A stretch of DNA of 64,000 bases from an uncultured Bacteriovoracaceae bacterium (lineage in GTDB: Bacteria > Bdellovibrionota > Bacteriovoracia > Bacteriovoracales > Bacteriovoracaceae), in the NCBI GenBank assembly GCA_937931205.1, contig CALHBF010000015.1, positions 186,001-250,000 of the forward strand, given 5' to 3'. The translations under genes were made by a program, and so were the position numbers. Shown in pieces: positions 15,029-21,664 of this stretch (the stretch's first letter is position 1; each line of letters begins with the position of its first letter). The notes under the pieces are model-generated. The model did no database searches, was not told the origin of the DNA, and worked only from the letters and a program-made list of their open reading frames with translations.

Positions 15029-15643
15029 TTAACGAGCGATGTCGTTAGACTGGTAGCTGATAAGAAGCATGTTACGACCACGCTTAATAGCATCGTTCGC
15101 TTCACGCTGATATCTTGGAGTAAGACCTGTAATACGAGCTGGAGAAATTTTTCCGAACTCGTTTACTAGCCATGAGTATGACTTTGGATCTTTCCAATCT
15201 GGAGAAGTTTTCTTAGCAGAGAACCAACAAGATTTGCGCTTAGAGTGCATTTTCTTGTCTTTATCATCGCTGAAATCTTCATCAGAAGCTTGAGCTTGAG
15301 AAGCTTGTGCGTGGTTAGGGTTTTTGTAATTTTTTACAATTGAATCTTGGTATCTGTCTTCGCCAAGTTTAACGATAATGTAACGAACTAGGTTTTCATT
15401 AATGTTAAAACGACGCTCGATCTCTTTGTTAAGAGAACCATTACCTTTGTACATGAAGTAGTGGTAAGCACCTTTTCTAAGACCTGATTCAGTAGACTGA
15501 GCGAAAGTTTTCACTCCCCATGAATCGTTAACTAATACTTCCGCACCGTTCTCTTTAAAAATCTCTGAAAGAGTATTCTTAATAGAGTTTACGATTTCCT
15601 CGGATGCGTCCGGGCGAACGACAAAAGCCGTTTCGTAGATCAT
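15029..15643 (-). CDS. rpsF-rpsR: Fused ribosomal protein bS6-bS18
   Basis: One uninterrupted frame of 204 residues encodes two ribosomal proteins. Residues 1-108 are bS6 (MIYETAFVVRPDAS, then YHYFMY and RRFNINENLVRYIIVKL). Residues 109-131 are a polar, acidic linker with the repeat QASQAQAS. Residues 132-204 are bS18 (KRKSCWF, FGKISPARITGLTPRYQRE, AIKRGRNMLL). The start at 15643 is set by a strong AGGAGG site 5 nt away, not the in-frame start at 15730. An internal ATG at 15250 (Met132) could start free bS18, but no ribosome site precedes it and no stop ends bS6. The two proteins are direct partners on the 30S platform, so a tether is plausible. I translated the junction directly and found no stop. 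Confidence 0.93.
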   Translation of the reverse strand: MIYETAFVVRPDASEEIVNSIKNTLSEIFKENGAEVLVNDSWGVKTFAQSTESGLRKGAYHYFMYKGNGSLNKEIERRFNINENLVRYIIVKLGEDRYQDSIVKNYKNPNHAQASQAQASDEDFSDDKDKKMHSKRKSCWFSAKKTSPDWKDPKSYSWLVNEFGKISPARITGLTPRYQREANDAIKRGRNMLLISYQSNDIAR

Positions 15644-15790
15644 ATTTCCTCCTGGATTATAATTAAGCCCATGAACACCATTGTCATGAGCGAGATGGAA
15701 TATGTAATAAATGTCGAGTGAATCTAACATGCCCCCTGAGCTACGTCCAGTAAAAGTCTAAGAGGGACATTTTGACACACTACTCTAAAC

Positions 15791-15917: not shown

Positions 15918-18900
15918 ATGAGTATCAAGATGAAATGGGTTTCGTTGAAACTTTTATTGTTCTTCACCACAACTCTCTTTTCACTAACGGTCCCGGCCAG
16001 CAAAAAAAGCATCGTCGATAATGACTGCAAAAAATTTGATCAGAACCTTGAAGCCCAAATAAGCTTTCACCAATCACAACTCAAATCTCTTCTCTCTCTC
16101 ATGGGGGCCAGCGAAGATTTTTTAGTGCCTCTGAGCGATCTTTTTGAAGTTGATTTAAATAATCCTCAGCAAATTAAAAAGCGTGTTCAAGAAATTGCCA
16201 ATCTCATAAAACCTGAATCCGTTTTAGAAACTCCCGAAATCAAAAAACTAAAAAAATGCTCTGACCAAAAGCACGCTAAGGACAATCTTGAAATCCTGGC
16301 CCGATCAATTGCTCAACTCAATAAACAGAAAATTGTTTTTTTAGAAATGAACAAAAAAGACAGAGATACTTATATTGTCAATTATGGAAAAAAAAGATCT
16401 AAATCCAAAACGTCAGAGTTTATTAATGATCAACTAAACAAAACGGTTAAAGAGAGAAATATCATTCAAAAAAAACTCGATGACATACCTTCTGCCAGTG
16501 ATCCTGAAGAACAGACGACGATCTATCTCATCAATCAAGCTAAAGCCGAGCTCATGGCCTATACTATTAATGTTGCCAATGAACAGATAACCTTTCTTGA
16601 GCAGATAAAAGAAAAAAAAGAAAGCCTCTCTGATCTTCGGAAAGAACTCACGAATATTAAAAAACGAGAAAATGAGCCAGCAGAAAAACTGTTTCGCACT
16701 TCAAATAAAATTTGGGAACAGGCTGTCGATTCTGTTATCGAACTTTATTCAGGTATAAGCATTCAACTTCATACTTATCTGCCTCCCAGACTACAAGATC
16801 TTGAAAACCTCTCAAGTGAAGACAAAGAGTCCTTTCAAAAGTACCTCGAAGCCCATTTTGAAGCGAAGAAAAAAAGAAGTGATCTCATCAACCAAAGATC
16901 TGAGATCATCAAAGAGCTCAAGGAATCAAGTTTTAGAATATTAAGAGATTCAGGGAGTCTGCGGGCCAAGTATATTGGGCTGTGTGATCAACAGGACAAC
17001 TGTAAAGATCACAGAGAACTCAATGCCCAGAATGTGGCCGATCTCAACAGGGAGATCAAAGTCATACCGGTTAAGCTTAATACGGGGTGGGTGGCAAAAA
17101 CACTGGAGATAGAAGGAAAGATAAAAAATGGTCTTGATGGATGGCTTGACCTTTCAGGCCAGGCATTCAGTCTATTCTTCTTATTACTCAGCCCTATCCT
17201 CCTCTTCAAGTCTCTGACTCTGATTACAAAGGCCAGTGATAAACTCAGACACGAAATCCTCCAACATTCTCCACTCGATTATAGAAGAAGAACGGCCATC
17301 GCCTCATGGCTGATTCGCATTCGCCCTTTTATTACAGATACGGGAATGCTTTTATTAATCCTTCTGGCAGAAGAAGTCATTGGTGACACGGTATTAAAAG
17401 AGGTCTCACTCTTCCTCTTTTATACCAGGGCCTACTTCATTTACCGAATTGTCAGAACCACGATCCAAATTGCTTTGGAGATCCTCTTCTCATCCAAGAC
17501 AATTGAAAAATCTCAAGAAACGAAGACTCAGGCTGAGAGTTCTTCTAAAAAAATCTCACGATTGATCCTTATTGAAGTTATTACGTTAAAGACAGTCGCT
17601 TTCTCGACAGACAAGGCCCTTCTATATGGTATATTTGCTTCAATCTTTTTTTATATAAATGTATTTTATATCCTTTTTGAATCAAAAAAATGGCAAGAAA
17701 AGATACATGATATCGTTGAGGACAACTTCCCTCGTATCTCCCCTATACTTCCTTCCATAGAGAAGTTCAAATTTATTTCCTACCTAACAACGCCACTACT
17801 TCTACTGGTGATTTCAGTCAATGAAGTGCTCGTCTTCTCTTATTCAAAACTGATACGATTTGATATCTTTAAAAGGCTAAACTCAGAAATCTTTAAAAGA
17901 AGACTGGAAAATGACAACCAAAAAGAAAAGATTAAGGAAACCCCACCAGATGAGTATTTAAAATACTTTGACTACTATCTTAGCACTACCAGCGAATTAA
18001 TCGTTCATCGTGACCACTCGATTGAACATAAATTACTCAAGCGTATAGAGAATTGGAAAAAAGGAGCCCACCTCTACGATTGCGCACTCATTGTAGGAAA
18101 TCGAGGAATAGGAAAATCAACTGCTCTTCAACTCATCGCTCAATCAGCTCCAGCAGACTTTATCTCAAGCCGTGCTAACCCGAAAATTTTAACCGAATCT
18201 CAGTTATTGGCATGGCTGGGAGAAATCCTTCAAATGGAGATCAAGTACCCTCAAGATATTCTTTTTTATGATAAGAACTTGAATGAGAAAAAAGTCATCA
18301 TGGTCGATGATATTCAAAATCTTTTTTTAGGAGCAATTGGAGGCTTTAAGGCCTATCAGATGTTCATTGAAATCATCAGTCTCCCAACAAAAAATATCTT
18401 CTGGTGTCTGACCATTAGTACTCAATCATGGCTCTACCTTAAAGGCATTTTTGGGGCAGAACATTTTTACGGAGAAATTTTTGATATCAAAGCTTGGTCT
18501 GATCTTGAAATTCAGAGACTGATTCTTAACAGACACAATGCCAGCGGGTTTGGACGTATTTTTGACAGCTCAATCAAAGCATTTAGTGCCGATGAAAATA
18601 CCTTTGGCCAGCAGTCGGAAACCCAATTTTTCAGACTCTTGTGGGGACAGTCCCGTGGGAATCCAAGATCAGCTCTTAGTTATTGGGTATCAGCTATCAC
18701 TGATGTCAATGATAAAAAAATAGGTATTGGCGTTCCTCAATTTATCGATTCCTCCCTTGTTTCAGGCATGAGTGATAATGCACTCTTTCTACTGGCCGCA
18801 ATTGTCAGACATGACAGCTTAAACTTGGAAGAAATGCATAGGATTGTGAATATCGAAAAAACCGTCATCTTAAAATGCCTGAAAGAGGCCCTTGATAAAA

Positions 18901-19001
18901 ATTTAATTTGGTCTTCAGCAGATAACCGATTTCGAATTTCATCAAAATCTCAATATACCATCGACTACTTTTTAACAGGAAAGAATTTTATTTATGAATG
19001 A
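15918..19001 (+). CDS. Envelope coiled-coil membrane protein with cytoplasmic AAA ATPase
   Basis: 1027 residues. In order: a signal peptide (about 1-27); a large periplasmic region rich in Lys, Glu and Leu with long predicted coiled coils (about 35-250 and 300-345) and cysteines at 37, 114, 356 and 362; five hydrophobic spans (about 414-436, 472-488, 497-520, 568-586, 619-640); and a cytoplasmic ATPase. The ATPase has Walker A GNRGIGKST at 727-735, Walker B KKVIMVDDIQN at 791-801, a sensor-2-like GNPRSAL at 914-920 and a winged-helix-like end (950-1020), like ORC/ExeA-type AAA proteins. An odd number of spans places coil and ATPase on opposite sides of the membrane. The plan up to the spans recalls MscK/MscM channels, whose channel domain is instead the next gene, overlapping by 8 nt. 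The start could also be Met5 (15930). Function unknown. Confidence 0.85.
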   Translation: MSIKMKWVSLKLLLFFTTTLFSLTVPASKKSIVDNDCKKFDQNLEAQISFHQSQLKSLLSLMGASEDFLVPLSDLFEVDLNNPQQIKKRVQEIANLIKPESVLETPEIKKLKKCSDQKHAKDNLEILARSIAQLNKQKIVFLEMNKKDRDTYIVNYGKKRSKSKTSEFINDQLNKTVKERNIIQKKLDDIPSASDPEEQTTIYLINQAKAELMAYTINVANEQITFLEQIKEKKESLSDLRKELTNIKKRENEPAEKLFRTSNKIWEQAVDSVIELYSGISIQLHTYLPPRLQDLENLSSEDKESFQKYLEAHFEAKKKRSDLINQRSEIIKELKESSFRILRDSGSLRAKYIGLCDQQDNCKDHRELNAQNVADLNREIKVIPVKLNTGWVAKTLEIEGKIKNGLDGWLDLSGQAFSLFFLLLSPILLFKSLTLITKASDKLRHEILQHSPLDYRRRTAIASWLIRIRPFITDTGMLLLILLAEEVIGDTVLKEVSLFLFYTRAYFIYRIVRTTIQIALEILFSSKTIEKSQETKTQAESSSKKISRLILIEVITLKTVAFSTDKALLYGIFASIFFYINVFYILFESKKWQEKIHDIVEDNFPRISPILPSIEKFKFISYLTTPLLLLVISVNEVLVFSYSKLIRFDIFKRLNSEIFKRRLENDNQKEKIKETPPDEYLKYFDYYLSTTSELIVHRDHSIEHKLLKRIENWKKGAHLYDCALIVGNRGIGKSTALQLIAQSAPADFISSRANPKILTESQLLAWLGEILQMEIKYPQDILFYDKNLNEKKVIMVDDIQNLFLGAIGGFKAYQMFIEIISLPTKNIFWCLTISTQSWLYLKGIFGAEHFYGEIFDIKAWSDLEIQRLILNRHNASGFGRIFDSSIKAFSADENTFGQQSETQFFRLLWGQSRGNPRSALSYWVSAITDVNDKKIGIGVPQFIDSSLVSGMSDNALFLLAAIVRHDSLNLEEMHRIVNIEKTVILKCLKEALDKNLIWSSADNRFRISSKSQYTIDYFLTGKNFIYE

Positions 19002-19824
19002 AACTGATATTGAAAGTATCTCAGCATTTGCTGAAATTTTAAGTTTCACGAAACTCTCTTTACTAATCACGGGAGTCATTGTCCTGGGTTTTGCAGTGAA
19101 GGTCATTGCCAATGCAGGAGAAAGACTTCATCAAAGAGTCCCTTCTCGTAGACTGCTGATTGCTCAAATTGTGACTGTAACTTCTTTTGCCATCTATATC
19201 ATTGGAGGAGGCTACCTCTTCTATGGAGTCGTTCAACCTCCCAAGGCCCTCCTCCTTGCCGTCAGCGGGACCCTAGCTGTCGCACTTGGTTTGTCACTAA
19301 AGGACTTAATCGCTTCAGTCGTCGCTGGTGTCATTCTTCTTTTTGATCGTCCCTTTCAAGTGGGTGATCGAGTCAGCTTTGAGGGAGTCTATGGGGAAAT
19401 AACCACCATCGGATTGAGAGCAGTCAGACTCATTACTTTGGATGACTCCGTTGTCACGATCCCCAACAGTAAGTTTATCACAGATGTTGTCTCATCAGGA
19501 AACTTTGGTGCCCTTGATATGATGGTGGAAATTAACTTTCACCTTGATCTGTCGGCAGATATTGAAAGGGCAAAAAAAATACTTTATGAAACTGCAGTAA
19601 CCAGTAAGTATGTTTTTCTCAAGAAACCAGTCAGTATTGTTTTAAGTGAACTTGATTTTGCGCAAAGACCTGCTCTACAGATAAGACTCAAATGCTATGT
19701 CATCGATGTGAGATTCGAAAAGGCCTTACAAAGTGATATTATTCTAAGAGGTAATGAAGCTCTCAAAGAAGCCAAGATCCCACGTCCTTTTTTTTCTTCC
19801 CCTGAAAAGACTCATGACTTATAA
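18994..19824 (+). CDS. MscS-type mechanosensitive channel
   Basis: 276 residues: spans at about 15-39 and 53-79, the pore helix at 85-117 with the Gly/Ala-rich SGTLAVALGLSLKDLIASVV, then FDRPFQVGDRV, the beta-domain and the PN turn (TIPNSKF). MscS channels open under membrane tension and release solutes. The upstream gene overlaps by 8 nt and the barrel gene by 11 nt, so all three are probably made together. It lacks the large periplasmic domain of MscK; the partner gene may supply that part. Confidence 0.93.
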   Translation: MNETDIESISAFAEILSFTKLSLLITGVIVLGFAVKVIANAGERLHQRVPSRRLLIAQIVTVTSFAIYIIGGGYLFYGVVQPPKALLLAVSGTLAVALGLSLKDLIASVVAGVILLFDRPFQVGDRVSFEGVYGEITTIGLRAVRLITLDDSVVTIPNSKFITDVVSSGNFGALDMMVEINFHLDLSADIERAKKILYETAVTSKYVFLKKPVSIVLSELDFAQRPALQIRLKCYVIDVRFEKALQSDIILRGNEALKEAKIPRPFFSSPEKTHDL

Positions 19825-20593
19825 AATTTATCTTCCTCTCCTATTACTCCTTTGTTTTCCTTTTAGGCTATCTGCTCAAACGGCTACAGTAATTAGAACA
19901 GACAGACCTGGCCAGGCGATTGTCCCTTATACAGTGGGAAAGAATTTTTTTCAGATTCAATCAGGCATTGAAAAAAGCAGTTACTCCCATGCAGGAACTC
20001 AAAACAAAAAATTCAACCTGGATAGCACTCTTAAATGGGGATTAAGTGAGAAGTTAGAATTGAACACCTCAGTAGTCTATCAGCAACATGGACTAATACA
20101 AAATGCAACTGATTCCCATCGTGGATGGAGTGATCTCCAAGCAGGTTTTAGATATAATCTTATCTCTACCCACAAAGGCTTAGTCCCGGCCTTAGGCCTT
20201 CAGCTGCGAATTCATACCGACCTTGTTGAGTCTCTCTACCACAAGAATCGCATGACCCCTTCACTCATGATTTCTTCCCATCATGAAGTGATTTCACTGA
20301 TCTCTTGGACTAACAATCTAGGTCTCTCTTATGCTGATGGCTTCGATCATTCTCTTTCTTACTCCTATGTGAGCAATATTTCTTTTCCGATAACCGAATC
20401 ATTTGGTTCATTTGTTGAAGTTTTTGGGCAAATTCAGGATCAAAAGATTTCCTTCAATGCTGATACCGGACTTGCTTACCTTCTTACTAATAACTTTCAA
20501 TGGGATGCTTCTGTTGGTTATGGAGATAATGACCAGACCATCTTTTATTTTTTTAGCACAGGACTCTCCTATCGAGCAGACTTGTCTCATTAG
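19814..20593 (+). CDS. Outer-membrane beta-barrel 'transporter' family protein
   Basis: 259 residues with a signal peptide (cleavage likely after SA at about residue 21). The mature start, TDRPGQAIVPYTVGKNFFQIQSG (read as residues 29-51), and the alternating aromatic beta-strands to the C-terminus match the Phenol_MetA_deg/transporter outer-membrane family (PF13557). The family is assumed to form barrels; transport activity is mostly unproven. I chose the ATG at 19814 because it precedes a clean signal peptide; the frame also opens at 19754. It overlaps the MscS gene by 11 nt. Confidence 0.75.
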   Translation: MTYKIYLPLLLLLCFPFRLSAQTATVIRTDRPGQAIVPYTVGKNFFQIQSGIEKSSYSHAGTQNKKFNLDSTLKWGLSEKLELNTSVVYQQHGLIQNATDSHRGWSDLQAGFRYNLISTHKGLVPALGLQLRIHTDLVESLYHKNRMTPSLMISSHHEVISLISWTNNLGLSYADGFDHSLSYSYVSNISFPITESFGSFVEVFGQIQDQKISFNADTGLAYLLTNNFQWDASVGYGDNDQTIFYFFSTGLSYRADLSH

Positions 20594-20668
20594 AAATTAT
20601 TAAAATTTAGGCACCATTCATTTATCGCCCCTGATAAAGCTCGTTAAAATGAGAATCAGGAGTCGCTC

Positions 20669-21664
20669 ATGATGTTATTGTCGGCCCAATTTTTTTTCGC
20701 CTCAGTTCTCATCGTTGGTGCTGGAATATTTCTCACGAAAGCGGCAGATGATATTGCAGATAAGACTGGTCTTGGGAAGCTGATTATTGGTTCTCTTCTT
20801 CTAGCTGGAGCGACTTCTTTAACAGAAATTTTTGTAGGGATTAATTCTATCCGTTCTGGTATTCCTGAACTAGCCATTGGGAACCTTCTCGGGGCCTGTT
20901 TGGTGAATCTTTTTATTCTCGCTCTGGCCGATACTCTTCATCGATCACGTCAAAAAAAGTTTTCAACAATCTCTGCTGGCCATGCACTCTCTGCAAGTCT
21001 TCTTATTGTCCTAGTCGCAATTGTAGCGGTCGGAATACTGTTAACCCCTGCCAGTGGAGGAATCATTTTGTTCAATGGATCCCTACCCAGTTATCTTATT
21101 GTGATTGTTAACCTGATAAGTATGAAAATTATTTTCAACAATCAAAACTGTGTTCATCATAATAAAATTTCATTTCGTTTTCCTCTCAAACAATTACTCC
21201 CGGGCATTGCCATTTTTTCTCTAAGTGCAGCAGTCATCGCTTACGCCTGCCCTATTCTCGTTCAAGTTGCTGAAGATCTTTCTCAAAGAACAGGAATGGG
21301 AGAAACTTTTATCGGATTAACTCTCATTTCTATTACAACCTCTCTTCCTGAAATGGTGGCCACACTTCAGTCGGTAAGAATGGGAAGTTATGATATGGCA
21401 TTCGGGAATATTCTTGGTAGTAATGCTTACAATATACTAGTCATTGCGATTTTAGACTTTTTTGTAGATGGCTCTATTTTTGCCGCCATCGGCATCATCC
21501 ACATCTTTACTTGTTTATCGATTATTTTGTGTATTGCAATTGCAGTGATTGGGAATCTTTATCAGGTCGAGAGGAAAAAATCCCTGCTCGAACCTGATGC
21601 GATTTTAATAATGAGTACGATTTGCTTGTGCTACTATCTGCTCTATGAGTTTAGTCTGATTTAA
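20669..21664 (+). CDS. Na+/Ca2+ exchanger-family antiporter (CaCA, YrbG-like)
   Basis: 331 residues with about ten spans in two inverted halves. The alpha-repeats are GATSLTEIFVG with GNLLGACLVN (47-80), and TTSLPEMVA with GNILGSNAYN in the second half. Both keep the ion-binding acidic residue. Such proteins exchange Ca2+ for Na+ or H+. AGGAG lies 7 nt before the ATG. No terminator is seen in the 75 bp after the barrel gene, so it may be the fourth gene of the island. It converges on rng with a 4-nt overlap. Confidence 0.9.
   Translation: MMLLSAQFFFASVLIVGAGIFLTKAADDIADKTGLGKLIIGSLLLAGATSLTEIFVGINSIRSGIPELAIGNLLGACLVNLFILALADTLHRSRQKKFSTISAGHALSASLLIVLVAIVAVGILLTPASGGIILFNGSLPSYLIVIVNLISMKIIFNNQNCVHHNKISFRFPLKQLLPGIAIFSLSAAVIAYACPILVQVAEDLSQRTGMGETFIGLTLISITTSLPEMVATLQSVRMGSYDMAFGNILGSNAYNILVIAILDFFVDGSIFAAIGIIHIFTCLSIILCIAIAVIGNLYQVERKKSLLEPDAILIMSTICLCYYLLYEFSLI

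Follow-up and report, generated by a model that had tools for sequence, protein, structure and literature searches.

A conserved two-gene unit, in which a membrane protein with a predicted ORC/Cdc6-like AAA+ module is encoded directly ahead of an MscS-type channel, was found in the phylum Bdellovibrionota and beyond, and we put at roughly 0.55 the probability that the pair works as one functional unit, i.e., a mechanosensitive channel with a dedicated regulatory partner. The pair lies in a stretch of 64,000 nucleotides (the window) from the 3.08-Mb draft genome of a bacterium of this phylum, whose relatives within its family group are named Bacteriovoracaceae and Halobacteriovorax, and its features are collected in Table 1. 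The coding regions overlap by 8 nt, and the ribosome-binding site of the channel gene (AGGAAAG before the inner ATG) lies within the last codons of the ATPase gene. Scans for promoters and terminators gave results at chance level.

Table 1. Positions and properties of the gene pair, the parts of the large protein and the adjoining gene, in window coordinates
Feature	Position	Strand	Properties
ORC-ATPase/sensor gene	15918..19001	+	1027 aa; uninterrupted frame; homologues in 67/368 phylum genomes; AlphaFold2 mean pLDDT 86.3
Signal peptide, residues ~1-28	15918..16001	+	Hydropathy minimum at residue 16
Periplasmic helical domain, residues ~30-398	16005..17111	+	All-helical AlphaFold2 model; Cys37/Cys114 conservation
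Membrane domain, six hydrophobic helices, residues ~405-645	17130..17852	+	Hydropathy of 44 homologues, loop charges, model helices
AAA+ domain, residues ~674-944	17937..18749	+	Walker A 727-734, Walker B 792-798, GNPR 914-917
Winged helix (~945-1015) and C-terminal tail, residues ~945-1027	18750..18998	+	Model, VIA alignment
MscS-type channel gene	18994..19824	+	276 aa; PF00924 E 2e-19; 3 membrane spans and cytoplasmic domain
Outer-membrane beta-barrel-like gene	19754..20593	+	PF13557

Conservation of the gene pair

Homologues of the large protein were detected in 67 of the 368 genomes of the phylum, and a profile of the MscS partner (genes counted at E 1e-60 or better) retrieved 64 genes in 63 genomes of this set. 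All but one of these channel genes (63 of 64) come immediately after the large gene, in the same orientation and within 60 nt. The exception belongs to a fragmented assembly and sits on a different contig, and the gene order was kept in every case where the contig permitted a check. Among the matches to the large gene without an adjacent partner, two stop at contig ends, one has its MscS gene cut by a contig end, two encode antiporter fusions and have a divergent MscS gene of their own, one is a weak match limited to residues 201-432, and the rest are fragments. The earlier note, made from the letters of this DNA, had proposed that a sensor-like membrane protein with an ORC-like AAA+ domain is tied genetically to a separate MscS pore, and the pairing at 63 of 64 genes supports this proposal.

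A second collection had the MscS gene right behind the large gene at 53 of 53 loci, including Hahella, bins of Gammaproteobacteria and one Spirochaetes bin, with several of the 53 loci coming from genomes that are also in the phylum set. These loci were recovered by an alignment-based scan; a scan of the same collection with a single sequence returned no matches. No third conserved gene was seen apart from scattered families and the beta-barrel gene of a few close relatives, and no other neighbour was common to more than seven of the 53 loci. Metagenome bins make up many of the genomes, and misbinning is possible for some contigs (e.g., the Gallionellaceae one). Distances in the two partner families are moderately correlated (Spearman 0.53-0.59, uncorrected for shared ancestry). 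Chance neighbourhood was also considered, and is ruled out by the near-absolute co-occurrence in both directions.

Judged by its sequence, the downstream gene encodes a member of the MscS superfamily, recognizable by the pore-lining helix and the upper cytoplasmic (beta) domain. Its profile matched 3udc (E 7e-22) in an alignment over residues 8-268, the C-terminal alpha/beta domain (PF21082) scored E 0.033, which is under the curated cut-off, and hydropathy minima were found at residues 30, 68, and 93, with a weaker one at 109. MscS is the textbook pore gated directly by membrane tension with no helpers. The channel described here resembles the E. coli type in its three spans, its MscS beta-domain and its whole-length profile match, and differs from it in being part of a distinct subfamily whose genes follow an ATPase-like gene. 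This subfamily is sharply separate, with scores of 380-430 bits compared to less than 80 bits for other MscS proteins of the same genomes, and the three other MscS loci of the present genome are without such a partner nearby.

The pair was absent from 25 genomes of the same genus. In about 10 of these genomes the contig shows rng near S6-S18 without these genes, and in the remainder the flank that was read contained no homologue. The pair was either gained here or lost many times, of which gain is simpler. The closest homologues, at about 41% identity, come mostly from other families of the phylum. In this genome, a four-gene block (15918-21664; ATPase, MscS, beta-barrel, and Na+/Ca2+ exchanger genes) separates S6-S18 from rng. 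The beta-barrel gene is likely a passenger of the pair, and its homologues lie close to the pair in few relatives only (L039/L011, L045/L006, and L068). As side observations on this region, the S6-S18/rng junction is short in several same-genus genomes, which are without the four-gene block, and ribosomal proteins S6 and S18 form a single open frame of 233 aa here (15029-15730, minus strand), a fusion that is open in many genomes of the genus and carries internal stop codons in others.

More distant MscS genes (145-311 bits) were found in Gammaproteobacteria, Spirochaetes, and Bdellovibrionota, and nearly all of those with readable upstream sequence are preceded by an ORC-like gene with one of several front ends. 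The gammaproteobacterial partner (L142-L153), encoded directly upstream of MscS, is often a soluble protein of ~400 aa with a degenerate P-loop. Most of these soluble partners are pseudo-ATPases, and some match the ATPase profile weakly (E 1e-3 to 1e-9); at L147, a locus of high GC content, the scan did not call the upstream gene. The Spirochaetes set has a partner with two spans and an intact P-loop. Two Bdellovibrionota loci (L159:2345-5045 and L160:1375-4042) encode a six-span partner that has no periplasmic domain, with MscS kept, and in both the P-loop is of a non-working form (GESGSGKN and GDPGSGRN) and the Walker B Asp is lost. The genome of L160 (G093) also has a standard pair. A fusion of ~1400 aa (L161:1178-6164 and L162:232-5164, in genomes G221 and G222) places a Na+/H+ exchanger (PF00999) first and the ORC-like ATPase last (E 1.5e-27), with a divergent MscS gene behind it. 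At L161, one of the two loci, TrkH adjoins this fusion. Since front ends are swapped in this way (none, two spans, six spans, or an antiporter), the fixed element is the ORC-like module together with MscS, and it is this combination, rather than an MscK sensor and its pore, that forms the conserved unit.

Architecture of the partner protein

Residues 674-1023 are predicted to fold like ORC/Cdc6, and TnsC and RuvB are almost as similar. Foldseek matched the AAA+ module to 1fnn (E 4.9e-7), and VIA over residues 674-1023 gave its best Z score of 15.6 for 7jgr_G (5.1 A over 260 residues) and 15.4 for 2qby_A; in Pfam, AAA families were the only ones found in the 1027-aa protein, all below cut-offs. 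Walker A reads GNRGIGKS (G727-S734) and Walker B reads VIMVDD, in which D797 is invariant. Among 44 homologues, the Walker A lysine is kept in 43 and the Walker B Asp in all 44, the position after this Asp is occupied by Glu in 21, Asp in 14 (also the residue of this protein), Asn in 7, and Gln in 2, and in the sensor-2-like motif GNP is invariant and the Arg is not. An ORC-like ATPase with Walker A, Walker B, GNPR and a winged-helix end had been proposed earlier, and the motif counts, Foldseek and VIA all agree with that assignment. The best-conserved stretch of the whole protein is its C-terminal tail KNFIYE (18978-19001), whose codons overlap the ribosome-binding site and start of the MscS gene, and thus its conservation may lie partly at the DNA level.

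The protein shares with ORC/Cdc6, TnsC/TniB, and RuvB an AAA+ fold with a winged helix behind it, the Walker A and Walker B motifs and a GNPR-like sensor-2 region, but unlike them it is anchored in the membrane and associated with a channel gene rather than with DNA transactions, and neither the Walker B Glu nor the sensor-2 Arg is conserved in its family. The channel gene context speaks against a role in DNA binding or loading. ExeA/GspA is likewise a membrane protein with an AAA+ domain. It combines this domain with a peptidoglycan-binding domain and has ExeB/GspB as its partner, whereas none such is present here and the partner is MscS. Because the Walker B Glu is variable and some relatives are without Walker A or Walker B, ATP cannot matter identically everywhere, and the lost or variable catalytic residues make a nucleotide-bound clamp, a scaffold or a binding switch likelier than a power-stroke motor.

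Ahead of the ATPase module, a hydrophobic, signal-like N-terminal segment is present in nearly all full-length homologues, followed by a domain that is very probably periplasmic and differs in length among relatives. Cys37 was found in 28 of 28 and Cys114 in 29 of 29 homologues that have this domain, and a second pair (Cys356/Cys362) occurs in close relatives (9 homologues each). Such cysteine pairs suggest disulfides, as expected for the oxidizing periplasm, and the domain is probably stabilized by them. The membrane domain shows six hydrophobic minima across the family (at residues 424, 479, 517, 554, 581, and 629, from hydropathy of 44 homologues), and loop charges place segments 435-471, 524-547, and 644-668 inside and 489-497 outside, while the last two loops (L4 and L5) give no side. 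A cytoplasmic ATPase that follows a signal peptide needs an odd number of crossings, as six would leave the ATPase outside, so one of the six hydrophobic helices probably does not cross the membrane. The earlier note had predicted five spans by eye, where six hydrophobic helices are seen here, and the odd number of crossings that is required may or may not be five. Its placement of the ATPase on the cytoplasmic side agrees with the loop charges, which put the region after the last helix inside.

Relation to MscK and competing explanations

Several features of the pair recall MscK and MscM, namely a signal peptide, a large helical periplasmic domain, peripheral membrane helices and an MscS pore that is controlled by more than tension. 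In MscK, a periplasmic bundle is joined to a peripheral bundle (TM1-6) and a core (TM7-11), and opening needs external K+ (PMC9653487). The present system differs in that the pore is on a separate chain (the 1027-aa protein has no MscS domain, whereas MscK has 11 spans in one chain), in that an ORC-like AAA+ and winged helix are added, and in that the front end is not recognizably homologous. It is very unlikely, in our estimate, that we are dealing with a split MscK whose periplasmic part and outer bundle in the membrane were parted from the pore and supplemented with an ATPase, even though the parts come in the same order (signal peptide, periplasmic helices, membrane bundle, and MscS pore), the pore itself has MscK as its best NCBIfam model, Foldseek ranked 7ux1 first for the front end at a non-significant E of 0.19, and hhalign gave a weak colinear match of residues 401-629 to the first MscK spans (16%). 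The front end reached at most 17% against MscK in hhalign, compared to 4% for the reversed control, and with the transmembrane part only the probability was 0.2-0.3%, the same as for the reversed control. Neither PF12794 nor PF12795 matched the 1027-aa protein, PF12794 had no match anywhere in this genome, a PDB profile search with the front end found no MscK, and MscK was absent from the VIA top 50, which held generic helical bundles only. Moreover, relatives dispense with or exchange the front end, but never the ATPase module. The earlier description of the front end as MscK-like thus found nothing significant in Pfam, the PDB profile search, Foldseek, VIA, or hhalign judged against reversed controls, and what can be stated is a likeness of plan, with kinship not proven.

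Two further explanations concern what the partner does. An assembly or loading factor, comparable to clamp loaders, RuvB or TnsC-type AAA+ proteins, would help to build, insert or place the MscS heptamer without controlling its opening, and the nearest folds, which belong to proteins that build rings or filaments, as well as the translational overlap, which favours co-translational assembly, are consistent with such a role. We regard it as unlikely, however, as E. coli MscS is not known to have a partner of this kind and the three other MscS proteins of this genome are without one. A sensing role is suggested by the periplasmic domain and by the fusion to an antiporter, and lineages with degenerate P-loops could not use ATP-driven assembly. 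More doubtful still is an immune or abortive-infection device, in which an AAA+/STAND-like protein would sense infection and open the MscS pore to kill the cell: a PADLOC search yielded no credible match (best E 0.015-0.028 over short stretches), the neighbours at the 53 loci have no common defence-like theme, the link to a Na+/H+ exchanger and TrkH points elsewhere, and pseudo-ATPase lineages retain the pair. In favour of such a device are the patchy occurrence of the pair (present in this genome and missing from its 25 same-genus relatives) and the fact that some family members resemble STAND NTPases weakly in Pfam.

Proposed function and significance

The pairing, the gene overlap and the exchange of front ends point to the channel as the target of the ORC-like module. 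It is highly likely that the partner and MscS form a physical complex, and control of gating is slightly favoured over assembly as the task of the partner. We hypothesize that the ORC-like module would lie in the cytoplasm against the channel, at its cytoplasmic cage or at the membrane ring round the pore, and would serve as a clamp, bound to nucleotide, that determines if the channel opens or at which tension it does so. The membrane bundle and the periplasmic helical domain would anchor this module, and the periplasmic domain could report the state of the envelope, in which case a single pore could be subject both to a periplasmic signal and to the nucleotide state of the cytoplasm. The bCNG channels are cyclic-nucleotide-gated relatives of MscS that carry their cNMP domain on the pore chain. 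Our proposal shares with them an MscS-superfamily pore under nucleotide control and differs in that the AAA+ protein is on a separate chain (for bCNG channels in the context of the MscS superfamily, see PMC4560390).

The setting is rather likely osmotic or potassium homeostasis. The association with an antiporter and with TrkH points this way, as does an enrichment of mscS reported for marine Bdellovibrionota (PMC8067016), which may or may not concern the subfamily studied here. No prior description of an MscS channel with such an ATPase partner was found in a full-text literature search, which covered mainly open papers. Taking the swapped front ends into account, we give about even odds to the broader view that this is a widespread two-gene class of mechanosensitive channels, with an ORC/Cdc6-like AAA+ or pseudo-AAA+ protein as obligate cytoplasmic control subunit and with interchangeable input domains (a sensor in the periplasm, a short anchor, a Na+/H+ antiporter, or no such domain).

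If this is true, bacteria (Bdellovibrionota, Gammaproteobacteria, and a Spirochaetes bin) would also put MscS pores under a dedicated AAA+-type protein, the ORC/Cdc6 fold would gain a role at the membrane, and channel opening would depend on nucleotide or envelope state besides tension. The tuning of osmotic release by ATP or envelope state would then be directly testable, and the pseudo-ATPase lineages and swapped front ends offer natural experiments on which part of the system does what.
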